DNA of 64,000 nt. It comes from Halichondria panicea. Taxonomy: Eukaryota; Porifera; Demospongiae; Suberitida; Halichondriidae. Made by a program: the position numbers and the translations under genes. The stretch covers positions 822,303-886,302 of the forward strand of contig NC_087380.1 in NCBI RefSeq assembly GCF_963675165.1, read 5' to 3'. This document shows, in pieces, positions 32,475-62,329 of the stretch. The notes beneath the pieces are model-generated. The model saw nothing but the letters and a program-made list of their open reading frames with translations, did not search any database and was not told the DNA's origin. Each line of letters begins with the position of its first letter. Within the stretch, counting starts at the first letter, position 1.

Positions 32475-33876
32475 CTACACATCATCCAGAAGTGGCTCTC
32501 TATAATCAGTGGCATTATAGTATTGACGCTGCTGCGTTGCATTGCCCAACGTCACTTCCTGTGTTGTCACTTCGTTCCTTCCACTTTCTATGAGTTCATC
32601 TTCTTGTATGCTTGTATACATTTCTCGTTTCTTGGCGAGCCTCTGAAGCTTGGGTCCGACTTTCTTGGCTATGTGGAAGATTATAATACAAGCAAACTGC
32701 AGGAGAGCAATACAAACTGAGGTAGCAGTCACTGGATTGAGGGTGTCATTTTGTCGGACATCTTCCGATTGTATTTGATAAAACAAGAATGCTCCACCTA
32801 AGATGATGAGGTTAAACAGATACAATACTTCAAGCACAGATGCAAACCATTGCTTGTAGAGATAGCCAACAAAGGATGTGTAGACTAGCAGGAGTGTAGC
32901 TATAATGGTCATTACCAGTATGTTAGCATTCGGATTGGATGTTGAGGTTGTTGAGAAAACAATCAATATCACTACGCGTGAGATGAGTAGAATCCCCGTC
33001 CACATTTGATGCTGTCGCTTGTCTTTGAAAGGACCGTAAAAAGTATCAAAAAACGGCATGAATGTGTTAATCCAGCAAAGGGGTCGGTAGTCTGACTTGG
33101 CTTTTAGGAAGGGTACTAGAAGGAGAGTCAAAGTGAATGGCAACCAAAACAATAGCATAAAGAGTAGTGCCACCACCATTAAGACAATGTGTCCCCGTGT
33201 TGTTCCATATTCAACATTTCCATCCAGGGACCAAACACTGCGAATCGAACCATCAGAGCCACTAATGTCAGATGGAGTAAACACATTTGTGATAATCCTG
33301 AACAGCTTCCCATAAGATAGGAGGATGAGAGTAGACAAAACAGCAACAGAGTTTCTACCAAAGAATCGAGTGGCTTTTATGGAATACCGAGACACTAAAA
33401 TGATGAGACCAGCAATGCACCAGATGTAGACTGGAAACACGAACTGTAAACCACTTTTAGTTACTTGATCCAAATTTTGAATAAAACAAGTCTCAATACC
33501 AAAGTCCAGATTAATCCAAGCTATAGGCACAGTGATGATGTAGTAGCCAATGTTCTGTCTGCCCTGCTGTGGGAACAATATAGCATTGTTAATCCACACA
33601 ACATTTGCGTAGAATATCAGTCCATTTATGGTACCATTGGCAACTGTGAGGTTGAAGAGTGTAATCATAGCAACCAATAAAATCCCGAGGATGGCGAACA
33701 CAATCAATAGAGCAACATAACTATTGTCATGACATTGTATGCACCTATCACCTCCTAATTGCAGGCTGTAGTTGCCTTTACATCTCCCACACAGTATTCC
33801 AGCACGGTTTGAGCTGCACTGCGAATCAGGGGATGTCAAGTGAACAGATATTGCAGACCTAGTGCAGTATTCACTA

Positions 33877-36800
33877 CACTGTAAAAACAGGGTGGTGACC
33901 GTCACTACCAAATGTGGTGATGGTCACTACCTAAGCGAATCACTACATGGTGGTGATTTATGTATGTGGTGATCCTCACTACCAATCTCAGTGACGGTCA
34001 CTACCTAAGTCCTTCACCAACATAGCTCAATACCAACTGTGGTGACGGTCACTACCAAAGTCCTTCACTACATTCAACCTCCGCGATGACTCCTAGATCC
34101 TAAGTCCTTCATCACAGTGTGCATGCAGTGGTACCTCTCACTTAACTTACTGTTCCCTGTACCTTCTCCTGTGTGTGTCACAGCTCCATTAATTATTATT
34201 TTATAGATAGGCATGCAGCATGCAATGTGATACTTTTAATATTTCATGGTGAAAGTCACAAGTTGTCATTTTTACGGTCTATCCTGCTACCGTCGAAGAC
34301 CAAGTCAGAAGAATACAACGAACTATAAAATAATATTCTATATCAGTGTATGACGACTGTTTGGTCGGCTACTTACTATAATTATAATTATACGATAATG
34401 TAATGGTGTCTTTTTAATATCCACCACTGACTGTAAACTTGAAACAACATGAAGTTTTACCCAACAAACTTGCAGTACACAATTATAATATTGTTCTTGT
34501 ATAGCTACAATTGCTCCTCCCCTAACAATGATGACAAACTGGGACATAAATAATACACTATTCCCGACCACTCCCAACAGGTACAGACGTAAGCTTTGGT
34601 TGTAACTTTAAGGCAATCAGCATCAATAATAATTATGCCGTTAAATCTAAGGGAGTGACAAACTCAAGCAGATGCTTGATGGATCTAGTTTGCTGACTAA
34701 GTATAAAGGCTGCAAAGAGGCCCCATGGTGCCCTGATATCTCACTAAGCTTTTTTGCCTGAGCAGCATTCCATATTCTGCAATAAAAGAGAAGCATGAGA
34801 TTATCAATCCATAGACGTATAATGTTACTGCTAGCTTGAACAGTTACAATGGCATATCTGCATTCATATTAAGGCCAGTACACAATAATAAGATTTTACC
34901 AAACAAAATAATTAACAATTGATTCACACACGTATTTACAAATACAATTACTAGTTGAAGCGATGTATTAATTGTGTAACATCTTTGAAAAGAGGTTTCT
35001 GTACCTGGTCGATCAACACGCAACACGACTTACTGCTAACCCGTACCAGGTAGATCTAGATTTAGTGGTCTATTTTACAGAAACTGAGTCACCAAGACAT
35101 AGTCAACACGCAACCCGGCTTACTGTTAACCATAATTGCCTCAGTAAAACAGTTCATGGAATGCTTTTACTATAAGATGTTACACGACATCAACATGCTC
35201 CATATCTAAGCTACATGATTCAACACTATTCATCCACACACTACTATTCCTTATCCTTTGGTAGCAGCAATATAAGACTGCCAAATGCCTTTCCTTGTCA
35301 CTGAATTGAACTGTAATAGGAAGATCTAGTTAGCTTGCTATAGCTCCTTCCATGTCCATATCTTCACTTGCGCGCTCTTGTTTGTTGAATAGACCTATGA
35401 CCAAATAAGGGCACGTGCAATTATGCAGCTGCAGATTTGCAGCTGCACACATCAACAAAAATTATTTGCTGGAGTTTTTAAAGAAGCAGACAAGTTGAGC
35501 TTTTAGAGAATGCTTTGAGAGTTGTTTGACAAAACTGTGTAACTAGGTAAGTTCCTCAACATGCTGCACAGTTTAAATTAATATTTTATGCAGAACTGAA
35601 TTTCTCCTGAAGGACAAGCAAAGCGCAAGTAAACACTTCATTAGGGCTTAAACAAGGGAAGACCAAAGCCCATTGCCCTAAGCTTCGTTCAGTATGCACA
35701 ACACAAGTGAGTTAATTAACTATACTAGTTCAGAAGAAGTAGGGACTTCACATTGTAATTGTAATACTTCGAGCTTCCAAGCTAACCCTCTCAGGATTGT
35801 AGGGCTTACTCTACATTCCTGTACTCTCATAATAATTGTCCATCCTAAAATCGTCCATCCTCTTTTGTTAATGCAGTAAAATTTATAGAATTCGAACTAC
35901 TGATGCTTGTACGTATAAAGTAGTCTTCAATAGAAGCCGGTCTCAAATAGTAGCCTCAGTGAATTTTGAGGCTATGTGTCTCTGCACTTTCAGCCATATT
36001 AATACTGGTATCTACAGTTGCAGCTTAATTGTTAGGTTCAGTGAACTTTGAGGCTATGTGTCTCTGCACTTGGCAGCCATATTAATACTGGTACGGTTGC
36101 AGCTTAATTGTTAGGTACCGTTATATGCTTGAAGGCCGCACTCAAATAGTAGCCTCAGTGAACTTTGAGGCTATGTCTCTGCACGTGGTTGATTGGTATC
36201 TACGGTAGCAGCTAGCTAGGGTAGCAGCTTGCTTAAGTAGTGCTTTTAGAAGACTTTCTCATGGCATAGTTCGAGTAAAAATAACTAGCTGGGGCTAATA
36301 AACACCTCTCTTGAACAATGTGCTCTCTCGAATTGTAGCCTCCTTTGTCAGCAAAATGAACATTTAGTAGCCATGCGCACAGCCTCTGATCAAGCATATA
36401 CATACTAATAATATTATTATACAGATGAGCGACATAACAGTAGTTGTGTTTGTGTGTGTATGTGACTGTCTGTCTGTGTGTAGATTGCCATAGCTGTTCC
36501 AATGAACACGAAGTGCAAGTATAATGTAAAGGCTCTATAGCCATTGCATCATTCCCGAGTTATGGGTAATTTTGCTCTAATACTTGGAATGCCGTTGCAT
36601 GCAGTGTTTTGTCTTTAAGTGTCGCAGCAATCATGTCATCATTATGTCCCGCTTGGGTTGTATCATAGCAACTGGGTGGAGTTTCACTACTCCGTTGCCT
36701 TAAGGGCGCACTGATTTTGTTACAAACAGCCAAAAATAAGTTAGCAATGGGAGGACAGATGGGTAGGCTCGTTACACATGGACAAGTTAGTGCGTAGCGC

Positions 36801-38707
36801 TAGAAGTTTAGCACTGGCTATACAAGCTATAATAATATGCACACGCTTTTCGTTCATTTTCAATAGTTTTTAACTGTTTACTAGTCCTTGCAAGGTGAGT
36901 TAGCTTAGGTATATATAGCAAGCATTTTTCATTTCAGTAGATATAATTATAATTATAAAATTTATGGCAACGTTAAACCATCCTTGGCCTTGAGACTTTG
37001 CCTTCGTCCTCGGAGGTTTATTGCCATAAATAGTGGACAAGGCATCAGCACCTGCAGCGCGTTTATTTATACTGTTATTGTTGTTACACACTATTGCGTT
37101 CAGTAACTGTTGTAATTAACTTGCAGGATATGAAGTTAAAAAAAACGTGTGGAGCAACCATACTACTGGACACCTTTAAGTATAGACATAAATCAAGGTA
37201 TGTGCATGCTGCTGCCGTATTGCCACAATTTGTTGTCAGTGATTAATATGTTAGTTCTGTTAGTCCTGCTTTTGCACACAAAACAAGAGTGTAACAGTTC
37301 ATTTTGTTCCAAAAATAATTGTCTTACTTCAACCTCTCTTCGTATCACATCTTTGTACTTAGCCTATAAAGTCAGCAAAAGATTTGTAGAATTGTTGTTA
37401 CTAGGTTACTAAACACCCCCTAATCTGTATGTATATAAATTGTGCTTGATCAGAGGCCGCTCTTACAATTATAAAGGTTGAATAGTAGCATCTCAATTGC
37501 ATCTTTATTGGTAGCCTCAGTGAACTTTGACCCTCGCTGAGACATATCTGCAGTGGGAGCCATGCTTATTGATACTGCACGGTATCTATGTGCCAGTTAG
37601 CTTGGTAGCAGCTTGCTAGTGCTTTAGTTAAGAGACTGTCCCATGGCGGAGTTTGAATGTGTGCAGATGAAAGAAAATTGTACCTATATTGGCCTTATGA
37701 ATTGTAGCATTTTTTGCCAGGAAAATAAGTAACCGCGGCCTCTGATCACGCAAATAATTATGAATCTGCCACCTGTAGCACATTGACCTTAATTTTCAGT
37801 ATGATTAGCAAGTTGTTCCTCTTCAGAGTTTTAGGCAGACCCATTGTTAACATTCATTTTGAATTATTTATAGCAAGCTATTAATTGTTTTGACAAGGCT
37901 TGCAGTATAGCAGTTCTTCCAAACCTTATTGTTCTGCTCACAATAATTGATTACTGCTCTATATAGAGTAATAAGAATTTGCATAGCCTCCCTGGCTCTC
38001 CAGTGTGCTGTTCAGGTATACCACTATAGTCCGGGCCGATACTTCTTCTTGTAGACATAATTGTGCCTGCTATTTTCTGTAGCTATAATTGGCTCAGCTT
38101 CACGCATTGTTTTCATACTTCAGTATTTGTGACATCATGGATTACTTTATTTGGCTTATAATTAATTATACATAGCAGGTAATTACGAAAACTTACCAAC
38201 GAAAACGTAAACGTGGTTTACCGGTACACATGCACGTATAATTGAAGCTCAGTAGGTATGCAAAAGTTTTGTTGTTAATCATGCGATATCCCCCGGCACA
38301 TAATCTAATTTGTATAATTATACACTTCCAACCTACATAGTTGACTCTATTACAATGAAATAAACATACTTTCTCCTTCATGCATATACAGGAGGAGGGA
38401 GGAGGTTGGGATGTAAAGACAGCCAAGAACTGATGATCAACTCAGGCCATTAGACACTGTCATTTTATACTCTGTTAGGCTAGTAAGCATAATGCTTGTT
38501 ATTATTTTCTGTGCACATTTTCAGAATTTTTGTATAGTGATTTTTACTAGTTCTGGTGATGTTCACTACCTAAATGTAGTGATCGTCACTACTTAAATGT
38601 AGTGATTTGAAAAAGTGGTGAGGGTCACCAGTCGATTTGCGGTGACTATTGTGGCAGCCGTTTCACTACCTTTTGGTGGTGACGGTCACTTTCCAGTTTT
38701 TACAGTG
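33877..38707. mobile_element. 4.8-kb DNA transposon with CACTGTAAAAAC termini, family unrecognised
   Basis: The element starts CACTGTAAAAACAGGG and ends with the inverse of CACTGTAAAAACTGG. It is flanked by TA on both sides (33875-33876, 38708-38709). The intact copies show the uninterrupted target. Both ends carry many copies of a near-palindromic motif, GGTGACGGTCACTACC or variants: left about 33887-34080, right about 38550-38690. These look like subterminal transposase-binding sites. The interior (34100-38500) is AT-rich and shows no long reading frame, so the element is non-autonomous. It contains a threefold tandem unit (35941-36235) and a direct repeat around 'caacacgcaac' (35016, 35104). 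The TIR is shared with the 132-bp MITE at 45338-45469. I cannot match it to a named superfamily; the TA target is compatible with Tc1/mariner-like or ISL2EU-like elements. Confidence 0.85.
35941..36235. repeat. Tandem 80-97-bp repeat inside the 4.8-kb element
   Basis: Three units contain 'gtgaactttgaggctatgtg', 'tctctgcact' and 'ggttgcagcttaattgttag'. A fourth, diverged unit lies at about 37509-37620. The units have no coding capacity. Confidence 0.7.
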
Positions 38708-40724
38708 TAGGACAGTACTGGTACCAGTAGTATACGTCTGTTCCTTGTTCGGCAGTGTCCACTCCTACCCATACAGTTCCTTCTCTAGTGATAATGCCAG
38801 TATGGTTTTGAATCTCACAAGTTAACATCAACTGCTTACTGTATTCGTCGCAACCGCACATACTTGAAGTATTAAGCTGAAACCCCAGTGGACACTTATC
38901 GATAGTGATGTTAATGAAGATGGCCGTATGGAGAAGAGCTGCACACGGTGCTGGGGAGTACATACATGCAGCGGAGTATATGTTATTTACACTTTCTTTA
39001 ATTATGTCGTCTTGATTGCCTTGAACAAACGATTCTTCAACAGAGAGGCTTAGTTGAAGGGTCCTGTTTCTTTGGTTGGACAATACTGTGTAGGTTAGTG
39101 TCGTGCATTGCTCGTAGTCATTGATAGATTGTATATGTTGACCATCATTGATACTTCCAGCCTGCCTATCCAGTACAGTAGCAAACACAGTTCCTGTTAC
39201 TCTACTAAAGTTAAACCCCACAAGAGCTACAGAAGTCTCAAAGCTCTCCCCTGGAAATGTTATCTTGTTTAATACAAGGTACGTACTGTTTTGTGTATCG
39301 TTTACACAGAAACACACTCGAGAAGGGTTTGATGCAAGTCGAGATGTACTCGGTACTGAGTCGTCAAAATAAAAAATACTATTCTCTGAAACTGAGCATT
39401 TCTCCTCAAAGTATGATACTTTTGTTACTCCAAAAATGTCCCTTCCACCGAAACTAGCATTGTTCCCAAAGAACGTCACTCGAGTATCACCACTGGTATT
39501 GTTATAAAAGCAAGGTTCATAAAAGTTAGAGATAACGTCTTGCAAAATTCCGTTCTCCACAATAACTAGTAGCTGTGGAGGGAGAGGTGGTTCTGTAGCA
39601 ATATAGATCCCCCCACCGTACTCCAGAGCTGTATTGTTCTCAAAACGTGTAGTAGATCCTGAATCAAATATCACTTGTGATTGATACAAGGCCAGACCAC
39701 CTCCTCTTACTGCAATGTTGTTAACAAACACATTCTCTCCTGACAACTGGAAGGTACTTTGGTAGGCTAGGATTGGTGTTCCGTTGTTGTTATCGAATGT
39801 ACAGTCCTTGAAAATTGTTTCTTCTTGATTGAATACCCATATTCCAACGACTCTGTTTCGTGTGAAACAACAGTGATCTATTTCATTCCTATCTTTTCTT
39901 ATTAGCACAACTCCAACATCATTGCTATCAATCCAAGAGCTTCGCAGTGTAATGCCTGAGCGATTTGATAGAATGCCGATACTATTATCAGTTATGTTGG
40001 AATTGACAATAGTTACATTTGGTGTGTTAACAGTATATACTCCATACAAATCATTCTGAAATATCACGCTGTCCTCAATCAAAACTTTCTTTCCTGCAAT
40101 GACCCAAACTCCCATATAGGTGTGAGATATAGTCGACTTTTTGATTACTATTGAGCTGTCAGCAATCGGGTCTTGCGTGTTTTTACGCAGTACCAAGCCA
40201 CCACGATGACCAAAAAAGCTACACCATCGGAAAGTAGCTGTAAATCCTACAGAATCAGATACAGAATCAGATACAGATAGTAGAACATTCTCAAACAAAA
40301 TTTCTGCGATCAATACATTTGATGATGCGATACTAATCAAAGAATTAGTAGGGTATAATTGACCAATAACCTTCGGGCGTTGTCCCAGGTTTGGAAGTGC
40401 TGGCTGCAAGGTTATATTGTTAGTATAAATACTCAGGGTCCTATTGAGATTGTGAACTCCCTTCAGGAATATCAGAGTGATGTTGTTAATGTGGTCAGAT
40501 AAATTTCCGTGCTGAGCATAGTGGTCCAAGGTGTCGCAAGGTTGAGGACAGTCAGGTGGGCCGGCTGGGAGGGTTGGGGTGACATAGAAGGTCTCTGCCA
40601 CGCAAGGAGAGAGGAGACCAGCTGTCACTAACAGGCCGAGTAGTTGAAGCATCTTGTACATTGCTGCTTGCTGAACAACTGTACCATAGCGCGCTAGCTC
40701 ACTAAACTTTATGGCTTCTTGTAG

Positions 40725-40745
40725 AAAAACGGGCGTGGCTGTGGT
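40725..40745 (-). promoter_or_regulatory. Conserved upstream block of the beta-helix genes (copy 1)
   Basis: About 70 bp before the ATG, the minus strand reads AGCCACGCCCGTTTTTCT. It recurs before copy 2 (45276-45295) and copy 4 (56913-56932). Copies 3 and 5 have lost or altered it. It is a CACCC/GC-box-like candidate promoter element. Confidence 0.4.
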
Positions 40746-40859
40746 AGATAGATAGATAGATCAATTTTCATTTGGATAGGAATGCTGCATCCACCATAAT
40801 GGTAGGTTTTCATGCAGGTCCTATATAAAAAGAAAAGAAAAAAAATAAATAAATAAAAC

Positions 40860-42847: not shown

Positions 42848-45239
42848 CTACACATCATCCAGAAGTGGCTCTCTATAATCAGTGATATTATAGTATTGAC
42901 GCTGCTGCTTTGCATTGTCCAACGTCACTTACAAGTCTCAATATCAAAGTCCAGATTAATCCAAGCTATAGGCACAGTGATGATGTAGTAGCCAATGTTC
43001 TTGCCCTGCTGTGGGAACAATATAGCATTGTTAATCCACACAACATTTGCGTAGATAATGAGTCCATTTATGGTACCATTGGCAACTGTGAAGTCAAAGA
43101 GTGTAATCATAGCAACCAATAAAATCCCGAGGATGGCGAACACAATCAGTAGAGCAACAGAACTATTGTCATGACATTGTATGCACCGATCACCTCCTAA
43201 TTGCAGGCTGTAGTCGTCAGCACATCTCCCACACAGTATTCCAGCACGGTTGGAGCTGCACTGTGAATCAGGGAATGTCAAGTGAACAGCTATTATACAG
43301 ACCTATTGCAGTATTCACTAGGACAGGTATACCAGTAGTATAGGTCTGCTTCATTTTTGACAGTGTCCACTCCCACCCACACAGTTCCTCCTCGGTGATA
43401 ACGCCACTGAGTATGGTTTTGAATCTCACAGGTTAGCATTCACACTAGCCTCGAGACCAGGCCGATTAAAATATGTATTTTAATCGGGCTGGTCTCGAGG
43501 CTACATTCACACATACCTGAAACCCCAGTGCAGAGATCTATTACTCTATCTCTGCCCAGTGGACACTTATCAACAGTGATGTTAATGAAGATGGTCGTAT
43601 GGAGAAGAGCTGCACACGGTGCTGGGAAGTGTGTAGCGTTGCATGCAAAAGAGTATATGTTATTTACTTTAATTATGTCGTCATGATTGTCTTGAAAAAC
43701 GATTCTTCAACAGAGAGGCTTAGTTGAAGGGTCCTGTTTCTTTGGTTGGACAATACTGTATAGGTTAGTTCCGTGGATTGTACATAGTCATCGATAGATT
43801 GTATATGCTGATTATCATTGATGCTTCCGGCCTCTCCATCCAGTACAGTAGCAAACACAGATCCTGTTACTCTGCTAAAGTTGAATCCCACAATAGCTAC
43901 GGAAATATTAAAGCTCTCTCCTGGAAACCTCGTCTCGTTTAATACAAGGTATGAACGGTTTTGACATTGTGGTGTATTGTTTACACAGAAACACACTCGA
44001 GAAGGGTTTGATGCAAGTCGAGATGTACTCGGTACTGAGTCGTCAAAATGAAAGATACTATTCTCTGAAACTGGACATTTATGATTATAGTATGATGCTT
44101 TTGTTAGTCCAAAGATGTCCCTTCCACCAAAATTAGCCCAAAGAACGTCACATTCAGAGTATCACTATTTGTGTGTTCACTGTAATAAAAACATGTGCTT
44201 GAAATTAATTCATCAAAATCTATGCTCTCCAGAGCAACTCCTAGCTGTTGAGGGAAAGTTGAATCTGTAGCAATGTAGATCCCCCCACCATACTCCCTAG
44301 CTGTACTGTTCTCAAAGCGTGTAGTCGATCGTGAATAAAATGACACTTGTGATTGATACAAGGCCAGACCACCTCCTCTTATCGCAGTGTTGTTAGAAAA
44401 CACATTCTCTCCTGACAACTGGAAGGTACTTCCGTGGGCTAGGATTGGTGTTCCATTGTTGTTATCGAATCTACAGTCTCTGAAAATTGCTAGTTGACGG
44501 ACATTCACTAACCATATTCCAAAGAATCTGTTTCGTGTGAAAGAACAGTTATCAATTATATTAAAGTGTTTTTCATTTTTATAATAATACCAAAACTCCA
44601 AAATCATTGCTATCCACTTGACAGTTTTGGAGTGTTATGCCTGAGTCATATGATACAATGCCAAAACCATTAATATGACTTATGTTGGAATTGACAATCG
44701 TCACATTTGATATACTTTGAATTAATAATGCATATACTCGTCCAACTTGTAGTGTCCTCAATCAAATAATTTTTTACTGAGTAGGCATTGACTCCTACAC
44801 TAGTGTGAGTAGATCTAGATATAATGGAATTTTTGATTGTTATTGAGCTAACATCCAGGTCTGTAACTCCTTCATAATATAGCTCTAGTGAAACATTCTC
44901 AAACAAAAGTCCTTCGATCAATGTATTTAATGCAGTTATTGTAAACAGAGACCCACCATTATTAGTGTCACATCGACCAATAATCTTCGGGCGTTGTCCC
45001 TGGTTTGGAATTGCTGGCTGCAAGATTATGAAACCAGTAAGGTAGTCACTGAGATTATGAACTCCCTCCAGGAATATTAGAGTGATGTTGCTGTGGCCAG
45101 ATAAATTCCCGTGCTTAGCATACTGTTCCAAGTCAGCTAGGGCTGGGAGGGTTGGGGTGACATGGAAGGTCTCTGCCATGCAAGGAGAGAGGAGACCAGC
45201 TGTCACTAACAGGCCGAGTAGTTGAAGCATCTTGTACAT
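42848..45239 (-). pseudogene. Beta-helix multi-membrane-pass receptor, copy 2 (pseudogene)
   Basis: It starts MYKMLQLLGLLVTAGLLSPC at 45239 and ends with the conserved YREPLLDDV stop at 42850-42848. Between these there are several frameshifts near 44130-44180, 44580 and 44750-44790. A foldback MITE is inserted at 43446-43503. A deletion of about 1 kb joins the TLDNAKQQR tail codons directly to the segment after membrane helix 3 (junction about 42930), removing most of the membrane domain. Its tail codons (DNAKQQR) match copies 4 and 5, not 1 and 3. It cannot give a full receptor. Confidence 0.85.
43446..43503. mobile_element. 58-bp perfect foldback MITE with exact 9-bp target duplication
   Basis: The element runs from TAGCCTCGAGACCAGGCCGA to its inverse complement. 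It is flanked by cattcacac on both sides (43437-43445 and 43504-43512). A 9-bp duplication is characteristic of Mutator-like (MULE) transposition. It sits inside beta-helix pseudogene copy 2. Confidence 0.85.
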
Positions 45240-45275
45240 TGCAAAACAACAGCAAGCTTAGCTTTTGGCTTCTTG

Positions 45276-45295: not shown

Positions 45296-45337
45296 GTACA
45301 CAGAAGAGGAGGGGGTGGGGGAATGGTTAAACCCCTA

Positions 45338-45469: not shown

Positions 45470-45505
45470 TAGTCTCTCTCATCGTGTCTCAAGCCATGGA
45501 TCAGA

Positions 45506-46500
45506 ATGCAGACCCGGTACCCGATGATAACAGCAACCGCTAAAAGAGATGTGAGAGCCCTAAACCGTGCGGAACATGCTCAACAAGCCAATGATGTCAA
45601 GGACAAGTTACCCAGTGATCTGAAACGTCACGCAGATCTGGCAAGTGAAAAAGGAGCCTCATGGCTATTGGTTATACCCATAGGCACACACGGCTTCCAG
45701 TTACACAAGGGAGATTTCAGAGACGCTCTACGTCTGAGATATAACTGGCAGCTCAGCAACATCCCTAAAACATGCAACTGTGGTGCAAACTTCTCTGTAG
45801 ATCACGCTATGATTTGCCACATGGGGGGCTTCCCGACTATTCGCCACAACGAAATTCGTGACATCACAGCCTCACTGCTCACAGAAGTATGCCATAATGT
45901 CGCTACAGAGCCACCCCTCCAGCCCCTCACTGGAGAGCTCTTTTCTGCCAGATCAGTAAACACAAGCAACCATGCTCGCCCCGATTCGTGCAAGAGGCTT
46001 CTGGAACAACCACCAAGATGCATTTTTTGATGTAAGGGTTTTCTACCCTAACGCACCTAGTAACCGTTCCGGAGATGCCTACAGGAGACACGAGCAAGCA
46101 AAAAAGAGGGAATACGGACAAAGGGTCAGAGAAATCGAGCGGGGAGTCTTCACACCCTTAGTCCTCTCAACCTGGGGAGGAATGGGCAAAGAAGCAGCAA
46201 CCTTCTACAAGAGGCTCGCTGATTTGTTATCCTCGAAAAGACAAAATCCCTACCCAGCTGTAATGGGATGGCTTAGATGCAGGCTATCTTTTGCATCAAT
46301 CCGCTCTGCAATAATGTGCATTCGAGGAAGCCGCTCATCGTTACACAGACCAGTTTACATGGACAATATCAACCTTGTATCTCAGGAGGGGCGAGTCCCC
46401 CCCCTGAATATATAATTCCTCTATGAACTACTTATGATATATATTCGCTTTGTTTTTATTTTTGACTGCTACATAATTACTATCACTAAACTACTTCCTT
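45506..46500 (+). mobile_element. 3' end of a retrotransposon encoding a restriction-like endonuclease (frameshifted)
   Basis: Two overlapping plus-strand frames, 45506-46030 and 45972-46415, are the parts of one protein broken by a frameshift near 45990. The first holds a zinc-knuckle-like CNCG...HAMIC motif. The second continues with RGFWNNHQDAFFDVRV. An ARPD tripeptide-plus-one in the first frame and the D of FFDV in the second fit the (K/R)PD...D core of the nuclease found at the C-terminus of R2/CRE/NeSL-type non-LTR elements. A 3' untranslated tail runs to about 46500. The reverse-transcriptase part is absent, so the copy is truncated as well as frameshifted. Family assignment is from motif order only. 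Confidence 0.6.
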
Positions 46501-51300: not shown

Positions 51301-51651
51301 TTCTGTGATCAATACATTTGATGATGTGATTAAAATCACTGTTATGTCTAATCGACCAATAATCTTCGGGCGTTGTCCCAGGTTTGGAAGTGCTGGCTGC
51401 AAGATTATAAAACTAGTATTAACAGTAAGGTAGTCGCTGAGATTGTGAACTCCCTCCAGGAATATCAGAGTGATGTTGTTGTGGCCAGATAATAAACTCT
51501 GGTTTTGAGTAAACTGGTCCAGTGTGTAACAAGGTTGAGGACAGTCAGCTGGGGCTGGGAGGGTTGGGGTGACATAGAAGGTCTCTGCCATGCAAGGAGA
51601 GAGGAGACCAGCTGTCACTAGCAGGCCGAGTAGATGAAGCATCTTGTACAT
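48310..51651 (-). CDS. Beta-helix multi-membrane-pass receptor, copy 3 (intact)
   Basis: One intronless frame. I choose the Met at 51651 (MYKMLHLLGLLV) because copies 1 and 2 start there; the frame stays open to an upstream Met at 51741. The product is about 1113 residues. It has a signal peptide to about residue 22 (SPCMAETF), a CPQPC motif near 39-43, and beta-helix-like rungs from about 70 to 400 (NVTIVNSNISHNGIGILSNG, SGITLRSSWIDSNDVG). A glycosylated linker with paired Cys follows, then GILCGRCKGNYSLQ...DRCIQC at about 675-700. About ten hydrophobic segments lie between 705 and 1035, including WINLDFGIETCF, PVYIWCIAGLI and FMLLFWLPFTL. The basic/acidic tail ends YREPLLDDV. It should be a plasma-membrane protein with a large extracellular recognition domain. 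I do not recognise a named family, and ten segments exclude a simple 7-helix GPCR. Confidence 0.85.
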   Translation of the reverse strand: MYKMLHLLGLLVTAGLLSPCMAETFYVTPTLPAPADCPQPCYTLDQFTQNQSLLSGHNNITLIFLEGVHNLSDYLTVNTSFIILQPALPNLGQRPKIIGRLDITVILITSSNVLITEILFENVLLYVFEIHVATIRSCSFCGHGGGLELGNYQDPIADSSIVIKNLTISQTYRGVLVLAVEKVLIEDSVIFQNVFYGVTTANTSNVTIVNSNISHNGIGILSNGSGITLRSSWIDSNDVGVVLITKDKKEIDHCCFTRNRVVGIWLFNQEETLFRDCRFDNNNGTPILAYKSTFQLSGENVFVNNIAVRGGGLALYQSTVAFDSGSTTRFENNTALEYGGGIYIATEPPLHPQLLVVTVEIELLQNFISNFHEPCFYNNASDTQVTFFGNNASFGGRDIFGVTEVSYFEEKCSVSENSIFHFDDSVPSTYRLASNPSRVCFCENDTQQCQNRSYLVLNEMKFPGESFETSVVFVGFNFSRVTGTVFATVLDGQAGSINDNQRTQSVYDYEHCTTLTYTVLSNQTSRPLQLSLSVEESFVQGNPDDIIKESVSNIYSLACNATHFPAPCTALLHTAIFINITVDKCPLGFQLNNTSSMCGCDEYSKQLMLTCEIQNHTGVITREGTVWVGVDTVKNKTDLYYLYQYCPSDYCTRSAIPVHLTSPDSQCSSNRAGILCGRCKGNYSLQLGGDRCIQCNDNSSVALLIVFAILGILLVAMITIFDFTVANGTINGLIFYANVVWINNAILFPQRNIGYYIITVPIAWINLDFGIETCFIQNLDQVTKSGLQFVFPVYIWCIAGLIILVSRYSIKATRFFGRNSVAVLSTLILLSYGKLFRIITNVLTPSDISGSGGSIRRVWFLDGNVEYGITPGHIVLMVVALLFMLLFWLPFTLTLLLVPFLKAKSDYRPLRWINTFTPFFDTFYGPFKDKRQHQVWTGILLISRVVILIISASTSTSNPNANILVMTIIATLLLLFTSIVGYLYKQWFASVLEVLYLFNLIILGGAFLFYEKQPEDVRQNDTLNPVTATSVCIALLQFACIIIFHISKTVGPKLQRLAKKKRQEMDNTSVQEEELIQSGRYKVTTQEVTLGNATQQRQYYNATDYREPLLDDV

Positions 51652-51943
51652 TGCTGCTTGTTGAGCAACCATAGCGACTAAGTCTAGCTCAATTAGCTTC
51701 TTGCAGAAAAGGCAGACTCGCCAGCACTTTTCGCTGTGCAACAGTGACTACTTGTGAGTCTACACGGCAGACCACCCCGGCATAATCGGTCATGTGCCGC
51801 CCTCAATTATAACCGTAAATACACAATGCACCTTATAGGAACCATTTCAGGAGTGCCTGACAAGACTCAACACAGAATGATAAAAGAGATACAAAAAATG
51901 GGCACATGATCATTGATAAAATCTACAATCCTAGAGACTGTTG

Positions 51944-53524: not shown

Positions 53525-56500
53525 CTACACATCATCCAGAAGTGGCTCTCTATAATCAGTGGCATTATAGCATTTACGCTGCTGCTTTGCATTGTCCAAC
53601 GTCACTTCCTGTGTTGTCACTTTGTACCTTCCACTTTGTATGAGTTCCTCTTCTTGTACGCTTGTGTTGCCCATTTCTTGTCTCTTCTTCATGGCGAGCC
53701 TCTGAAGCTTGGGTCCGACTGTCTTGGCTATGTGGAAGATTATAATGCAAGCAAACTGCAGGAGAGCAATACAAACTGAGGTAGCAGTCACAGGATTGAT
53801 GGTGTCCTTTTGTCGGACACCTTCCGGTTGGGTTTGATAAAACAAGAATGCTCCACCTAAGATGATAAGGTTAATTAGATACAATACTTCCAGCACTGAT
53901 GCAAACCATTGCTTGTAGGGATAGCCAAAAATGAGTGTGTACAATAGCAGGAGTGTAGCTATAATGGTCATTACCAGTATGTTAGCATTCGGATTGGATG
54001 TCGAGGTTGATGCGGAAACAATCAATATCACTACACGGGAGATGAGCAGAATCCCCGTCCACACTTGATGCTGTCGCTTGTCTTTGAAAGGACCGTAATA
54101 AGTATCAAAAAACGGCATGAATGTGTTAATCCAGCGAAGGGGTCGGTAGTCTGACTTGGCTTTTAGGAAGGGTACTAGAAGGAGAGTCAAAGTGAATGGC
54201 AACCAAAACAATAGCATAAAGAGTAGTGCAACCACCATTAAGACAATGTGTCCCGGTGTTACTCCATATTCAACATTTCCATCCAGGGACCAAACTCTGC
54301 GAATAGAACCATCAGAGCCACTAATGTCAGATGGAGTAAGCACATTTGTGATAATCCTGAACAGCTTCCCATACGATAGCAGGATCAGAGTAGACAAAAC
54401 AGACACAGAATTTCTACCAAAGAATCGAGTAGCTTTTATGGAATACCGAGAAACTAAAATGATGAGGCCAGCAATGCACCAGATGTAGACTGGGAACACA
54501 AACTGTAAACCACTTTTAGTTAGTTGATCCAAATTTTGGCTGAAACAAGTCTCAATATCAAAGTCCAGATTAATCCAAGCTATAGGCACAGTGATGATGT
54601 AGTAGCCAATGCTCCGCTGTGGGAACAATATAGCATTGTTAATCCACACAACATTTGCGTAGAATATGAGTCCATTTATGGTACCATTGGCAACTGTGAT
54701 GTCGAACAGTGTAATCATAACAACCAATAAAATCCCGAGGATGGCGAACACAATCAACAGAGCAACAGAACTATTGTCATGACATTGTATGCATCGATCA
54801 CCTCCTAATTGCAGGCTGTAGTTGCCTTTACATCTCCCACACAGTATTCCAGCACGGTTGGAGCTGCACTGTGAATCAGGGGATGTCAAGTGAACAGGTA
54901 TTTCAGACCTAGTGCAGTAGTCACTAGAACAGTATTGATGCCAGTAGTATAGGCCTGTTTCATGTTTGGCAGTGTCCACTCCCACCCACACAGTTCCTTC
55001 TCTGGTGATGTAGCCAGTGTGGTTTTGAATCTCACAGGTTAGCTTCAACTGCTTACTGCTTTCGTCGCATTCGCACATATCTAAAGTCTTATTAAGCTGA
55101 AATCCCAGTGGACAGTTATCAACAGTGATGTTAATGAAGATGACCGTAGTGAGAAGAGCTGCACACGGTACTGAGGTATCGCTGCATTCATCAGAATGTA
55201 TGTTTTTTATACTTTCTTTAATTATATCGTCAGGATTGCCTTGAACAAATGATTCTTCAACAGAGAGCCCTAGTTGAAGGGGCCTGCTTGTTTGATTAGA
55301 CAATACTTTGTAGGTTAGCGTCGTGCATTGCTCGTAGTCATTGATAAATTTTATATGTTGACCATCACTGATATTTCCAACTTTCTTATCCAGTACAGTA
55401 GCAAACACAGATCCTGTTACTCTGCTAAAGTTAAATCCCACGAGAGCTACAGAAATCTCAAAGCTTTCCCCTGGAAACCTCGTCTCGTTTAATACAAGGT
55501 ATGCACGGTTTTGACACTGTGGTGTATTGTGTAGACAGAAACACACTCGAGAAGGGTTTGATGCAAGTCGAGAAGTACTCGGTACTGAGTTATCAAAATG
55601 AAAGATACTATCCTCTGAAACTGAACATTCATCATTGCCATATGACATTTCTGTTAGTCCGAAGATGTCCCTTCCACCAAAATCAGCATTGTTCCCAAAG
55701 AACACCACATTCGGAGTATCACCACTTGTGTGGTTATTGTTATAAAAGCAATGTTTACTTAAGGTAAATTTTAAACCTACATTCTCCAGAGGAACTAGCA
55801 GCTGTGGAGAGACAATTAAATCTGTAGCAATGTAGATCCCTCCACCATACTCCAAAGCTGTATTGTTCTCAAAACGTGTAGTCGATCCTGAATCAAATGA
55901 CACTGCTGATTGATACAAGGCCAGACCACCTCCTCTTACTGCAATGTTGTTAGAAAACACATTCTCTCCTGACAACTGGAAGATACTTCTGGAGGCTAGG
56001 ATTGGTGTTCCGCTATTGTTATTGAATGTACAGTCCTTGAAAATTATTGTTGGGTTTTGTTGACAGACATTCACTAACCACATGCATATTCTGTTTCGTG
56101 TGAAAGAACAGTTATCTATCATGATATTAAAGTGTTCTTCTATGTCTTCATTATAATATAGCACAACTCCAAAATCATTGCTATCCATCTGAGAGTTTCG
56201 GACTGTTATGCCGGAGTCCCATGATAGAATGCCGATACCATTAATACGACTTATACTGGAATTGACAATCGTCACATTTGGTATGTTTCGAAAAAATAAT
56301 GCATATGTGTCAAACTTAAATATCATACTGTCCTCAATCAAACAATTTTGTACTGATTGAACACGGACTCCTGCACTGGTCTGAGCAGAACTCGATATAA
56401 TTGAGTTTTTGATTGTTATTGAGCTGTCAACATCCAGGTCTGGAGGTACGTCACTATATAGCTGTAGTGAAACATTCTCAAACAAAAGTCCTTCGATCAA

Positions 56501-56860
56501 TGCCTTTGCTGATGCTATGATTTTCCAACCAATATCCATGTCACATTGATGACCAGTGTCCGCACGACCAATAACCTTCGGGCGTTGTCCCTGGCTTGGA
56601 AGTACTGGCTGCAAAATTATAAAACTAGTGTTAACAGTAAGGTAGTCGCTGAGAATGTGAACTCCCTCCAGGAATATCAGAGTGATGTTGTTGTAGCCAG
56701 ATAATAAACTCTGGTTTTGAGCATACTGGTCCAGGGTGTAACAAGGTTGAGGACAGTCAGCTGGGGCTGGGAGGATTGGGGTGACATGGAAGGTCTCTGC
56801 CATGCAAGGAGAGAGGAGACCAGCTGTCACTAACAAACCGAGTAGTTGAAGCATCTGCAT
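53525..56860 (-). CDS. Beta-helix multi-membrane-pass receptor, copy 4 (intact)
   Basis: An intronless frame of 1111 residues starting MQMLQLLGLLVTAGLLSPC. The architecture is that of copy 3: signal peptide, CPQPC, beta-helix rungs (NVTIVNSSISRINGIGIL, SGITVRNSQMDSNDFGVV), many NxS/T sites, the CGRCKGNYSLQ...CIQC motif, about ten membrane segments and a tail ending YREPLLDDV. By eye the membrane domain is almost identical to copy 3, while the first 330 residues differ a great deal. For example, this copy has an IIASAKALIEGLLFENVSL segment and a FKDCTFNNNSGTP rung. Its tail (TLDNAKQQRKCYN) groups it with copies 2 and 5. The missing second N-terminal residue pair (MQM for MYKM) is the only change at the start. 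Upstream it keeps the CACGCC block (56913-56932). It is likely to be functional. Confidence 0.87.
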   Translation of the reverse strand: MQMLQLLGLLVTAGLLSPCMAETFHVTPILPAPADCPQPCYTLDQYAQNQSLLSGYNNITLIFLEGVHILSDYLTVNTSFIILQPVLPSQGQRPKVIGRADTGHQCDMDIGWKIIASAKALIEGLLFENVSLQLYSDVPPDLDVDSSITIKNSIISSSAQTSAGVRVQSVQNCLIEDSMIFKFDTYALFFRNIPNVTIVNSSISRINGIGILSWDSGITVRNSQMDSNDFGVVLYYNEDIEEHFNIMIDNCSFTRNRICMWLVNVCQQNPTIIFKDCTFNNNSGTPILASRSIFQLSGENVFSNNIAVRGGGLALYQSAVSFDSGSTTRFENNTALEYGGGIYIATDLIVSPQLLVPLENVGLKFTLSKHCFYNNNHTSGDTPNVVFFGNNADFGGRDIFGLTEMSYGNDECSVSEDSIFHFDNSVPSTSRLASNPSRVCFCLHNTPQCQNRAYLVLNETRFPGESFEISVALVGFNFSRVTGSVFATVLDKKVGNISDGQHIKFINDYEQCTTLTYKVLSNQTSRPLQLGLSVEESFVQGNPDDIIKESIKNIHSDECSDTSVPCAALLTTVIFINITVDNCPLGFQLNKTLDMCECDESSKQLKLTCEIQNHTGYITREGTVWVGVDTAKHETGLYYWHQYCSSDYCTRSEIPVHLTSPDSQCSSNRAGILCGRCKGNYSLQLGGDRCIQCHDNSSVALLIVFAILGILLVVMITLFDITVANGTINGLIFYANVVWINNAILFPQRSIGYYIITVPIAWINLDFDIETCFSQNLDQLTKSGLQFVFPVYIWCIAGLIILVSRYSIKATRFFGRNSVSVLSTLILLSYGKLFRIITNVLTPSDISGSDGSIRRVWSLDGNVEYGVTPGHIVLMVVALLFMLLFWLPFTLTLLLVPFLKAKSDYRPLRWINTFMPFFDTYYGPFKDKRQHQVWTGILLISRVVILIVSASTSTSNPNANILVMTIIATLLLLYTLIFGYPYKQWFASVLEVLYLINLIILGGAFLFYQTQPEGVRQKDTINPVTATSVCIALLQFACIIIFHIAKTVGPKLQRLAMKKRQEMGNTSVQEEELIQSGRYKVTTQEVTLDNAKQQRKCYNATDYREPLLDDV

Positions 56861-56912
56861 TGCTGCGAAACAACCGCGCGCAAGCTTAATATAGCTCTTG
56901 GCTTCTTCTTGC

Positions 56913-56932
56913 AGAAAAACAGGCGTGGCTGG
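56913..56932 (-). promoter_or_regulatory. Conserved upstream block, copy 4
   Basis: Reads AGCCACGCCTGTTTTTCTGC on the minus strand, about 55-70 bp before the copy 4 ATG. It matches the blocks upstream of copies 1 and 2. Confidence 0.4.
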
Positions 56933-57272
56933 TACGCGCGCGCAGTCATGCAGTCATGCAGATGACCGCATCCGATCATCGACTCTTTCTTTGTTACCTC
57001 CAACCAACCACAACAGTACTAACATTTTAGTGTTGGATACTAATCCTAAACAGAAACCTTTGACCTTGACTATATCCTCTTCTGGCATATATACATGTAT
57101 AATATAGCGGCCCCCCAGAGACTGGAGCATGGAATCAAGGCAATACAAAAACTCGGTCACACCTCAATCCGTGAATACACTTAAAATGGATGCACTCAAC
57201 ACAGAATGATAAAAGAGATACAAAAAATGGGCACATGATCATTGATAAAATCTACAATCCTAGAGACTGTTG

Positions 57273-58513
57273 TTATCGTTTATATTTTGATTTGGAGTGT
57301 TTCCCCAGCAACGCCATTAAGTTCAGTGAACCCCGCCTCTTTAGCAATGTCCAGAGCTGTTAGGCCGTCCTAGGAGGAGACAGAAGGGTTAATAGTGGAG
57401 GGAGACAGAAGTAGGCAGTGGATAGAGACACTAGCACTAGACATATGCAACAATTATGGGGATGGTATTAGAATGCATCATGCAAATAGCAACCCTTGAC
57501 TTACATTATCCCTGAGGCTGGTATCTGTGTGAGGGTGTGTGAGAAGTGACCCCACTATCTCTGTATGACTACTCTGGACTAGCAAACATGAGTGCTGAGG
57601 AGCCGTCTTACAGTCATGTGATTGTCATGTGACATGCTGGTACAGATATTGCCACACCCACCTTATCCCGGAGGTTAACGTCGGCACCTTTCTCAAGGAA
57701 CAGAGAGACCATCTCCAGAGAACCACTGCAGGCAGCCAACATCAGAGCAGTCCGTTGATCCTGACACATCAAACAAGTTATTAGCATTGTTCGTACGCTA
57801 TGTAATTATAGACACTGTTTTGGAGGTGTCTATAATCAATATGGAATTTAGAAGCTCAAAGGCCAGTACTGCTTTAGTCAGTATCCCGAGCATAGCCAGG
57901 GTACTATACAAGTGCCTGAGGGCTTCTAAATCATGGACACTGACGAAACAGTGTCTATAATTTATACTTGAGGCACTTTTCACTTATCAAATCTTATCAA
58001 CTAGTGTCTAAATATTACGTGGTACATGTGCTTGTGTGTGTTCAACAATGGATATACCGAACTGAATGCAAAGTATAATCATTATTGTGTAATGGTTGTA
58101 GCCTCACTATCACATACTATCACCAACATCACCATCTCCCTATTTGAACTGTCTATAGTACAGTCATTAATTTATTACTGTACACAATGCATGCTAATAA
58201 TACATTGTACTGCTAACTGGTATAGTGTTGCTAGGAGACAGGTTCACCTTGTCAGCTGCCTTGTTGATGTCCGGGCCCCCCTGTCCACCAGATGTCCCAT
58301 GATGTCTCTGGGCCCCCTCCCCACACAGGTGCTGATACAGCTGGGCTTTTAGCATAATTATACCCGTAAATTGTTAGGTGCTTTTCATCAATAAGAATAG
58401 AGTCATTCAGATGAATACATAATAACTAGCAGCAGTTGTATATATGCCGTGTACCTGTGTTCACCCACCTCCACACAACAAGCAGCTGCCAGCATCAGTG
58501 GAGTGTAGCCAGC
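57273..58513 (-). pseudogene. Ankyrin-repeat gene 3' exons, cluster 3
   Basis: Same four exons: 58513-58249, about 57762-57663, about 57613-57509 and about 57370-57273. The first exon is split by a roughly 150-bp insertion (58309-58457) into CCVEVGEHR and MGHLVDRG-type parts. The stop codon of the last exon is TAA, not TGA. With an interrupted first exon and no 5' end, it is a non-functional fragment. Confidence 0.7.
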
Positions 58514-58924
58514 CTGTGTGTGTGTGGTGTGTGTGTGTGGTGTGGGCGTGTGTGTGTGTGGGGGGAGGCTGTTATACATGTACACCGGCTTTATGCAGTG
58601 AAATACCTGGCCTTAAAACACACAAAAGTAACCACCACAGTCAATGATCGATTAGGCCTTGCCCAAATTATGCTCAAAATTTTGCCTATTAATTTAGTCC
58701 CCAAGTCTCATGCATTGTACCTATTAGTTTTAATTAATTAATTAGCAATTATTACCCAAAAATCATCGACAAGAATTATAAACTATAATTTATTATGTAT
58801 TATTATACCTCATAAATCAGTTCTTAATTTCTCTACATTATGTTAAATTATGCAGCACAATCAAATTATAAATAACATACACACGTAAATCATTTCTTCT
58901 CTACATACAATGTTAAATGCTTTG

Positions 58925-61900
58925 CTACACATCATCCAGAAGTGGCTCTCTATAATCAGTGGCATTATAGGAATTACGCTGCTGCTTTGCATTGTCCAAC
59001 GTCACTTCCTGTGTTGTCACTTTGTACCTTGCACCTTCTTTGCCTGCATCTTCTTTTACACCTGTAATAATGTCTACTTCTGTTTTCTTCTTCTTGGCGA
59101 GCCTCTGAAGCTTGGGTCCGACCTTCTTGGCTATGTGGAAGATTATAATACAAGCAAACTGCAGGAGAGCAATACAAACTGAGGTAGCAGTCACAGGATT
59201 GATGGTGTCATTTTGTCGGACATCTTCCGGTTGGGTTTGATAAAACAAGAATGCTCCACCTAAGATGATGAGGTTGAACAGGTACAATACTTCCAGCACA
59301 GACGCAAACCATTGCTTGTAGAGATAGCCAACAATGGATGTGTACAATAGCAAGAGTGTGGCTATAATGGTCATTACCAGTATGTTAGCATTCGGATTTG
59401 ATGTTGAGGTTGATGCGGAAACAATCAATATCACTACACGGGAGATAAGCAGAATCCCCGTCCACACTTGATGCTGTTTCTTGTCTTTGAAAGGACCATA
59501 AAAGGTATCAAAAAACGGCTTGAATGTGTTAATCCAGCGAAGGGGTCGGTAGTCTGACTTGGCTTTTAGGAAGGATACTAGAAGGAGAGTCAAAGTGAAT
59601 GGCAACCAAAACAATAGCATAAAGAGTAGTGCAACCACCATTAAGACAATGTGTCCGGGTGTTATTCCATATTCAACATTTCCATCCAGGGACCAAACTC
59701 TGCGAATAGAACCATCAGAGCCAGAAATGTTAGATGGAGTAAACACATTTGTGATAATCCTGAACAGTTTCCCATAAGATAGCAGGATCAGAGTAGATAA
59801 AACAGCAACTGAGTTTCTACCAAAGAATCGAGTAGCTTTTATGGAATACCGAGAAACTAAAATGATGAGACCAGCAATGCACCAGATGTAGACTGGAAAC
59901 ACAAACTGTAAACCACTTTTAGTTAGTTGATCCAAATTTTGGCTGAAACAAGTCTCAATACCAAAGTCCAGATTAATCCAAGCTATAGGTACAGTGATGA
60001 TGTAGTAGCCAATGTTCCGCTGTGGGAACAATATAGCATTGTTAATCCACACAACATTTGCGTAGAATATGAGTCCATTTATGGTACCATTGGCAACTGT
60101 GAAGTCAAAGAATGTAATCATAGCAACCAATAAAATCCCGAGGATGGCGAACACAATCAACAGAGCAACAGAGCTATTGTCATGACATTGTATGCACCGA
60201 TCACCTCCTAATTGCAGGCTGTAGTTGCCTTTACATCTCCCACACAAATTCCAGCATGGTTCGAGCTGCACTGTGAATCAGGGGATGCCAAGTGAACAGG
60301 TATTGCAGACCTACTGCAGTAGTCACTAGGACAGTACTGATACAAGTAGTAAAGGTCAGTTTCATTTTTAGTGTCAATTCCCACCCACACAGTTCCTTCT
60401 CTGGTGATGTAGCCGGTGTGGTTTTGAATCTCACAAGTTAACTTCAACTGCTTACTGCTTTCGTCGCAACCGCACATACTTGAAGTATTAAGCTGAAACC
60501 CCAGTGGACAGTTATCAACAGTGATGTTAATGAAGATGGCCGTAGTGAGAAGAGCTGTACATGGTAGTGAGTTGTTGTTGCACATAGGGGAGTATATGTT
60601 ACTTACACTTTCTTTAATTATATCGTCTTGATTGCCTTGAACAAACGATTCTTCAACGGAGAGGCTTAGTTGAAGGGGTCTGCTTGTTTGGTTGGACAAT
60701 ACTGTGTAGGTTAGTTCTGTGCATTGTAAATAATCATTGATAGATTGTATATGTTGATTATCATTGATACTTCCAGTATTCTCATCCAGTACAGTAGCAA
60801 ACACAGGTCCTGTTACTCTACTAAAGTTGAATCCTACAAGAACTACGGAAATATTAAAGCTCTCTCCAGGAAACCTCATCTCGTTTAATACAAGGTATGA
60901 ACGGTTTTGACACTGTTGTGTATTGTGTACACAGAAACACACTCGAGAAGGATCTGATGCAAGTCGCGATGTACTCGGTACTGATTCATCAAAATGAAAC
61001 CATTTATCCTCTGAAACTGACCAATCATCCTCGTATGATACTTCTGTTAGTCCGAAGATGTCCCTTCCACCGAAATTAGCATTGTTCCCAAAGAAATGCA
61101 CTTGAATATTATCATTTTCATACTCTTTATAAAAGCAAGTTGGGAATAGGGGAAAGGAAATCAATTGCTTACAGGATATATCATTTTCCAAGGCAACTAC
61201 TAGTTGTGGAAGGAGAGGTGAATTTGTAGCAATGTAGATTCCCCCACCATACTCTATAGCTGTTTGTTCTCAAAGCGTGTAGTAGATCCTGAATCAAATG
61301 TCACAGTTGATTGATACAAGGCCAGACCACCTCCTCTTATTGCAATGTTGTTAGAAAACACATTCTTTCCAGACAACTGGAAGGTACTTTGGTGGGCTAT
61401 AATTGGTGTTCCGTTGTTGTTATCAAATGTACAGTCTCTGAAAATTATTTTTGAGATACTTAATAAGCATATTCCAAAGAATCTGTTTTGTGTGAAGGAC
61501 ACTTCAATCATTTGTGCATCACGCGGACTAGTTAGCATAACTCCAAAATCAGTATTATCAATTGAACAATTTTGGAGTGTTATGTTTGAGCCATATGCTA
61601 CAATGCCGAAACCATTAATATAGCTTATGTTGGAATTGACAATCGTCACATTTGGTACAACAATAATCGTTAATGCATACTTGTCCAACTTAAATATCAC
61701 ACTGTCCTCAATCAAGAGATCTGTTGCTGTGAAAGTGAATCCTACACGGATGGGAGCAAGTATAGAATTTTTAGCGTGAGATATAGTCGAGTTTTTGATT
61801 GTTACTGAGATTTTAACATCTTTCGATAATGATAATGCAACAAAAGGAACTAAGTACAAGCCACACCGTCGAATAACAAGTTTATAATCACGATTCCAGT

Positions 61901-62329
61901 TTATATATAGGTAAACATCAACCAACAAAAGTCCTTCGATCAATATTATTATTTGATGCACTGATATTTATAATTTAAATGTTGACTAATAACCTTCGGT
62001 GGTTGTCCCTGGTTTGGAAGTGCTGGCTGCAAGATTATGAGGTTAGTTTCAACAGACAGCTTGTTGCTGAGATCGTGAACTCCCTCCAGGAATATCAGAG
62101 TGATGTTGTTGTGGCCAGATAATAAACTCTGGTTTTGAGTAAACTGGTCCAGGGTGTAACAAGGTTGAGGACAGTCAGCTGGGGCAGGGAGGGTTGGGGT
62201 GACATAGAAGGTCTCTGCCATGCAAGGAGAGAGGAGACCAACTGTCACTAGCAGGCCGAGTAGATGAAGCATCTTGTATGTGGGGCCGGGGGTGAGGAGG
62301 AAGGTCCTACCGCATATCCATGTGCGCAC
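58925..62329 (-). pseudogene. Beta-helix multi-membrane-pass receptor, copy 5 (frameshifted)
   Basis: Four overlapping frame pieces cover the whole family protein: 62329-61949 (signal peptide, CPQPC), 61961-61254 (beta-helix rungs), 61191-60208 (ectodomain to the SDYCSRSAIP linker) and 60271-58925 (membrane domain and tail). The breaks are a junction near 61955, a 1-bp loss near 61262 ('gctgtttgttc' for 'gctgtattgttc') and a 2-bp loss near 60246 in the CGRC region ('acacaaattcc' for 'acacagtattcc'). The usual start ATG is ACA; other Met codons remain. The tail has an insertion (TGVKEDAGKEGARYKV) but keeps YREPLLDDV. The pseudogene is young, since each lesion is small. Sequencing or assembly error is a possible alternative for one or two of the indels. 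Confidence 0.8.

Follow-up and report, generated by a model that had tools for sequence, protein, structure and literature searches.

A Tandem Gene Array in the Sponge Halichondria panicea Joins a Beta-Helix Ectodomain to a Conserved Multi-Pass Membrane Module: Candidate Recognition Receptors

Results

Five Copies in a Tandem Array

The window, the whole stretch of 64,000 nucleotides analyzed here from the demosponge Halichondria panicea, holds five copies of one gene, all on the minus strand and spanning positions 32475–62275, which bears out the tandem array described in an earlier note on this DNA. The states that the note assigned to the copies also hold: two are intact, one is split by an inserted element, and two are broken in frame. 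The intact genes are copy 3 (48310..51747, minus strand), an open frame of 1145 codons, and copy 4 (53525..56953, minus strand), an open frame of 1142 codons with its first ATG at 56860. Copy 2 (approximately 42851..45257, minus strand) has several frame breaks and a partly deleted membrane region, with about 0.94 kb missing and the rest spread over several frames. Copy 5 (58925..62275, minus strand) is distributed over at least three frames.

Copy 1 consists of two separate open parts, a frame of 686 codons for the part with the signal peptide and the ectodomain (38700..40760, minus strand) and a frame of 482 codons for the hinge and the membrane part with the tail (32475..33923, minus strand). 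The transposon proposed to divide them corresponds to a 4.8-kb insert (33877..38707, no strand assigned) with inverted-repeat ends of 39 bp (87%) and a TA at either side; the alignment of copy 1 with copy 4 breaks off and restarts at adjoining bases around it. Copy 1 at 32468–33876 is 92.8% identical to copy 4 at the DNA level, and the final codons of the 482-codon frame (33877–33923) lie within the element. Because no frame in the insert exceeds 108 codons, it is probably a non-autonomous element.

The array continues past the window on the same contig (C4), where two further copies are open, one of 1135 codons at C4:888493 and one of 1142 codons at C4:895256. The second of these encodes a protein 100% identical to that of copy 4, and the DNA around the two is 98.6% identical over 4.3 kb; the 14 mismatches and 45 gap positions in this alignment indicate a recent duplicate of copy 4 rather than one place counted twice. 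A stretch upstream of copy 4 (57150..57500, minus strand) has matches nearly confined to the array, with seven of eight falling within it (C4:863798-899140) and the eighth, a weak one, on C13. Sushi, Ig, and fn3 domains are encoded nearby, as fits an animal.

Beta-Helix Ectodomain

The intact copies encode a signal peptide, an ectodomain of approximately 670 residues, a Cys-rich stretch, a CGRC...CIQC motif, and the hydrophobic segments, in this order. The signal peptide, the motif, and a conserved tail (YREPLL), all noted earlier, are visible in the translations. In copy 4 (protein P0001), the CGRC...CIQC module adjoining the membrane is encoded at 54782..54841 (minus strand; residues 705–724), where a weak DUF7630 match is found, and it is followed by the membrane module at 53726..54766 (minus strand; residues 730–1076) with ten hydropathy peaks and, in the translation, by the C-terminal YREPLL motif at 53537..53554 (minus strand). 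A motif of the YREPLL form occurs in 27 of 32 paralogue frames. The predicted N-glycosylation of the ectodomain is in line with its sequon content, which in all 32 distinct paralogue frames is above that of composition shuffles (20.0 versus 10.7 on average).

The beta-helix that had been proposed for the ectodomain was recovered both by profile search and by structure prediction. Pfam Beta_helix (PF13229) is matched over its cut-off of 25.9 bits in both intact copies (E 8.7e-15 and 5.2e-18), with 55.1 bits in P0001, over residues 176–320, and 65.6 bits in P0002; NosD exceeds its Pfam cut-off in copy 3 only. Among paralogues elsewhere in the genome, Beta_helix is also matched in L034 and L037 and, under the cut-off, in L033; it has no Pfam match at E<=0.1 in L030 and L031 and none in L041. 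AlphaFold, with the five window sequences aligned, models mature residues 1–324, the first half of the ectodomain, as a parallel beta-solenoid (55826..56797, minus strand, P0001 residues 53–376 in copy 4). The pLDDT is 66–92 in 25 of the first 31 ten-residue blocks and 40–61 in the remaining six; from the same five sequences, nothing usable was obtained beyond mature residue 324.

A Foldseek search with the ectodomain model returned beta-helix proteins; of the 20 PDB chains with E<=0.001, 19 are named as glycan-acting enzymes or phage tailspikes. Query TM-scores are 0.18–0.28, low because half of the model is disordered. By Pfam and by the model, the array proteins have the ectodomain fold of the right-handed beta-helix superfamily (PF13229; glycan-acting lyases and hydrolases, phage tailspikes), and they differ from its members in the fused multi-pass membrane module and in sequence, with identities of 8%–15% to the 20 best structures.

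Since polysaccharide lyases, hydrolases, and epimerases are the nearest folds, the proteins might be membrane-anchored enzymes that cleave glycans, or uptake receptors for polysaccharide feeding. We give this little credence: at such identities the likeness is one of fold only, the rungs are the least conserved part of the protein, unlike an active site, and the short-ectodomain subfamilies lack a beta-helix match.

Membrane Module and Topology

Ten hydropathy peaks, averaged over 32 paralogues, agree with the approximately ten hydrophobic segments first described. As a count of membrane helices, ten fares less well, and the charge distribution suggests nine crossings and one re-entrant segment. 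A net positive charge in the loops 835–845, 929–963, and 1010–1019 and in the tail from 1077 suggests that these are cytosolic, and the neutral or acidic loops 870–902 and 1040–1054 are read as outside; together with an ectodomain on the outside, these assignments give nine crossings. The segment around VPIAWINLDF would be the re-entrant or amphipathic one. Sequons do not decide the topology: loops assigned to the outside contain them (near 781 in about 9 of 32 members, at 873–882 in about 11 of 32), but so do loops assigned to the cytosol (847 in 11 of 32, 935 in 4 of 32) and the tail. The AlphaFold model of the membrane domain, built on the shallow alignment of the five window sequences, is unusable (pLDDT 37.5, pTM 0.23).

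The exclusion of a seven-helix GPCR stands, given ten peaks over 32 paralogues and nine inferred crossings, and neither 24 members nor L039–L043 match a 7tm family of Pfam at E<=1. One published account (PMC4302439) describes a sponge repertoire of adhesion GPCRs with large ectodomains, which resemble the array proteins in combining a large variable ectodomain, a constant multi-pass module, and lineage-specific multiplication. Unlike these receptors, the array proteins have ten hydrophobic segments instead of seven and lack a 7tm match by Pfam.

Searches for Relatives of the Membrane Module

The membrane module has no credible match in Pfam, NCBIfam, or PDB sequences; it remains unnamed, as first proposed, and no characterized transporter or channel was found to match it by sequence. 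Over 24 members, Pfam at E<=1 returned nothing beyond the weak DUF7630 match except nine families, each hitting no more than two members and taken as chance. The membrane modules of ten distant members, part of them searched at E<=0.1, gave no Pfam match, NCBIfam gave nothing credible, and two profiles found no relative of the module among PDB sequences. Also taken as chance were a bacterial permease chain (0.59, PDB), RNA polymerase zinc subunits aligned to the Cys module in the PDB profile search, a sterol carrier protein (0.91), Babuvirus_MP (0.12), and IcmV (NCBIfam, 0.0088; 16.1 bits versus a cut-off of 100). Scans of prokaryotic and viral contigs, their reach limited by the short peptide patterns used, yielded 46 and 47 pattern-matching stretches, none encoding a relative of the module by tblastn. 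A literature search, with most subscription journals outside its coverage, found no paper describing the family by title or abstract. The module, above all that of a subfamily with short ectodomains, may resemble uncharacterized proteins found in corals, anemones, and amphioxus and multi-pass proteins of certain protists.

Parts of the array proteins resemble two known families to differing degrees. DUF7630 (PF24633) has in common with them the CGxC...CxxC stretch adjoining the membrane; the window copies score 14.0 and 13.7 bits, below the 27-bit Pfam cut-off, and the model comprises 45 residues, with the membrane module outside its reach. The short repeat of the chlamydial polymorphic membrane proteins (Pmp; PF02415, TIGR01376) is over the cut-off in L034 (1.5e-14) and L041 (1.6e-5) and only marginally so in copy 4, with 15.7 bits against an NCBIfam cut-off of 15; copies 3 and 4 are under the Pfam cut-off. 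In contrast to the autotransporter barrel of the Pmp proteins, the C-terminal part of the array proteins consists of about ten hydrophobic segments of helix length, and the intergenic setting of the array is of eukaryote type.

Another possibility is a ligand- or force-gated ion channel, in which the module would form the pore as in TRP- or FLC-type proteins and the beta-helix would act as a gate handle. The number of hydrophobic segments, the re-entrant-looking segment, and conserved polar residues inside the membrane module would all accord with a channel, and the layout is similar to that of fungal TRP/FLC proteins with large ectodomains. However, PF06011 (TRP) matches 0 of 24 members at E<=1, and the module has no sequence relative in the PDB. 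In the genome, PF06011 finds one weak place (E 0.22, C9:6209311) and no family locus, in a scan without a positive control, as 0 of 14 control genomes match. The module may be very distantly related to PF06011, but we regard a channel as unlikely.

Family Size and Architectures

The family is much larger than the five copies in the window, with approximately 309 membrane-module loci in the sponge's own genome. The figure is approximate because a gene split by an insertion or deletion can count twice, and it is more likely low because unscored candidates are missing from it. With copy 4 as the query, 52 matches were obtained from the best 40 of 593 candidates. A 27-base pattern for A-W-[LI]-N-L-[DE]-x-G-[IV] gave 61 exact matches (0 for the reversed pattern), and membrane-module queries from distant members gave 99 (best 99 of 425 candidates) and 91 (best 89 of 419), followed by 90 (best 86 of 478) and 90 (best 90 of 328). 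The DUF7630 profile gave 147 matches from the best 150 of 349 candidates, 9 of the 147 reaching the cut-off; because 2 of 14 control genomes also match below the cut-off, its weak matches alone prove little. Merging by place and strand, with gaps of less than 1500 bases, resulted in 358 loci, 309 resting on a protein query or the pattern and 49 on DUF7630 alone. Copy 4, the pattern, and the first two distant-member queries account for 178 of the 309; the other 131 come only from the last two queries.

In all five loci picked from the DUF7630 matches, the membrane module is present (profile E 2.7e-114 to 5.8e-36; the best of ten shuffled control sequences has E 0.26), and five from the last two distant-member queries all match profile A5 (4.9e-24 to 9.4e-43). 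Ectodomain and module share a single frame in four of the former, with L036 split over two, and in all five of the latter. More broadly, 32 distinct frames of 900 codons or more encode both together; the sequence of L022 is spread over two frames, and that of L024 is truncated. Among the 32 frames, those of L006, L010, L012, and L017 have no clear signal peptide and that of L031 has a weak one; the end of the locus interrupts one frame of L023. Some of these frames are therefore incomplete or are preceded by an exon that escaped detection.

Of the 309 loci, 224 are clustered (gaps of less than 30 kb), and 150 of 175 neighbors lie on the same strand. Three kinds of ectodomain are joined to the membrane module, namely, beta-helix, Pmp-repeat-rich, and short Cys-rich. 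Longer proteins rich in Pmp-type repeats are encoded on C6, C11, and C14 (L034, L035, and L038). The short subfamily, with many members on C5, C8, and C10, has frames of about 550–690 codons and a small Cys-rich ectodomain; at E<=1, Pfam matches nothing in three such members (L039, L040, and L043) and gives only a chance match in L042.

Divergence and Selection

Within the window family, the membrane module has dN/dS ratios of 0.17–0.38 (dN 0.025–0.081), compared to 0.55–1.74 (dN 0.14–0.57) in the rungs (residues 111–280); in the tail, some ratios reach 3.9 on few sites. In Fisher tests, purifying selection is significant in 21 of 21 pairs for the module and in 2 of 21 for the rungs. In the rungs, pN is greater than pS in 8 of 21 pairs (smallest p 0.19), and in the tail it is so in 14 of 21 (smallest p 0.16), none of them significantly. 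In other clusters, the ratio is 0.20–0.55 for the module and 0.31–0.83 for the rungs, most being significantly below 1 and two comparisons being saturated. Positive selection as the driver of divergence is unsupported, with a significant amino-acid excess in no region or pair of the window family or the other clusters. Strand positions taken to face outward vary no more than those facing inward (0.37 versus 0.34), and diversification targeted to the surface is therefore not favored.

Some paralogue pairs look like mosaics. L011 and L014 are 75%–87% identical in the leader, 12%–45% over residues 121–400, and 75%–100% in the module. Between copies 4 and 3, dS is 0.116 in the module and 0.422 in the rungs; the lower module value would be consistent with gene conversion in the module or with rung exchange, and misalignment of the rungs adds to the difference.

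Self/non-self recognition or adhesion, with the rungs binding identical or related proteins on other conspecific cells, would also be consistent with rungs that vary on an invariant module, with the arrangement in tandem arrays, and with the presence of both recent duplicates and broken copies. The absence of a significant amino-acid excess in the single genome analyzed and the sheer number of loci, with some 309 over many contigs exceeding the need of a few allorecognition loci, make this quite improbable.

Discussion

In outline, the earlier interpretation stands: the family has no name, multiplies in tandem, and combines a beta-helix ectodomain with a multi-pass domain; the approximately ten helices of that interpretation are more likely nine crossings and a re-entrant segment. 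The sequences indicate that the genes have been multiplied and lost in tandem, and a recognition repertoire has this layout: an elongated ectodomain that varies, a multi-pass module that stays constant, and multiplication in tandem. We consider the chances evenly balanced that the family is a very large set of cell-surface recognition receptors. This reading draws on the beta-helix found by Pfam and AlphaFold, with glycan-acting enzymes or tailspikes as 19 of its 20 PDB neighbors; on the sequon excess in every one of the 32 ectodomains; on the disparity in purifying selection between module and rungs; on rungs that diverge between a near-constant leader and module, as in L011 and L014; on the number, clustering, and shared orientation of the loci; and on the use of one module with different ectodomains. 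Against it would count the lack of a significant amino-acid excess anywhere, the outward strands that vary no more than the inward ones, and the low Foldseek TM-scores. Very similar evidence would be expected if the proteins were transporters or channels or served in adhesion.

If the proteins are recognition receptors, a simple model can be proposed. The beta-helix rungs would provide an elongated surface that binds a polysaccharide or glycan on microbes or on neighboring cells. Ligand binding would shift the Cys hinge and the conserved segment that follows, AWLNLDFGIETCF, which is read as re-entrant, and the membrane module would relay this shift to a conserved basic cytosolic loop, PFFDAYxGPxKxKxxYWxG. 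The tail motif may recruit a partner or sort the protein. New specificities would arise by duplication and subsequent fast change or exchange of the rungs between the constant leader and the constant membrane module.

A more far-reaching proposal, which we put forward tentatively and hold to be somewhat doubtful, is that the family forms a receptor class of its own. Its nine-pass signaling module, unlike GPCRs and known channels, would be a common chassis for interchangeable ectodomains of the beta-helix, Pmp-type repeat, and short Cys-rich kinds, and the family would be among the largest recognition repertoires of an early animal, missed by surveys for named domains. In the main reading, the family would belong with the known large, lineage-expanded families of surface receptors.

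The methods of a sponge immune survey (PMC8242945) list TIR, NACHT, GPS/7TM, C-type lectin, and SRCR domains, and none of these listed domains is found in the array family. If its members are receptors, some three hundred loci in a genome of 131 Mb serve a repertoire that would escape surveys based on domains. The animal would then possess an additional means of distinguishing microbes, food, and kin, with the membrane module as a new signaling chassis.

Genes and repeats surrounding the array

The array of beta-helix, multi-pass membrane proteins is adjoined by what is likely a second surface-protein locus (window 10962-25381, plus strand), in which sushi, immunoglobulin, and fibronectin III domains are encoded by pieces of at least one long gene. 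In the three frames scanned there against Pfam, matches were obtained to sushi (3.7e-25), Ig_3 (5.5e-15), and fn3 (3e-12), and the gene fragments terminate in a hydrophobic segment. Exons of a translesion DNA polymerase occupy 5104-8302 (plus strand), where the frame 5107-5622 matched IMS (PF00817) at 1.1e-25, and a single open frame of 524 codons at 8542-10116 (minus strand), the start of which resembles a signal peptide, yielded an alpha/beta hydrolase match in Pfam at 1.8e-9.

A compound tandem repeat with 23-bp units of the CATACAAGCCTAYAAGCTAGTAY type is located at 30598-30905; similar units of 11 bp form short arrays at 10135 and 14510. Two stretches with long inverted-repeat ends, at 29770-30451 (109 nt at 97%) and 62439-63501 (85 nt at 96%), resemble short inverted-repeat elements. 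The latter lies directly upstream of copy 5, a broken array member (58925-62275, minus strand). Adjoining copy 2, also broken (about 42851-45257, minus strand), a pair of overlapping frames of 185 and 151 codons (45473-46415, plus strand) reads like a retroelement fragment; these frames had no match in Pfam at E<=0.01.

Family clusters and C-terminal tails

In the window's own genome, the family is most densely clustered at C5:1435723-1572510 (27 loci) and C10:4835636-4942135 (16 loci), and both of these clusters are of the short-ectodomain type. C-terminal tail motifs differ by subfamily. In longer members on contigs C6, C11, and C14 that are rich in Pmp-type repeats (L034, L035, and L038), the tail is proline-rich, with PPSY or PPYTDGA, whereas in short members with a small Cys-rich ectodomain (L039, L040, L042, and L043), it carries a P[HD]R[LV]xxPxxY motif. 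These subfamily-specific motifs may represent sites for partner binding.
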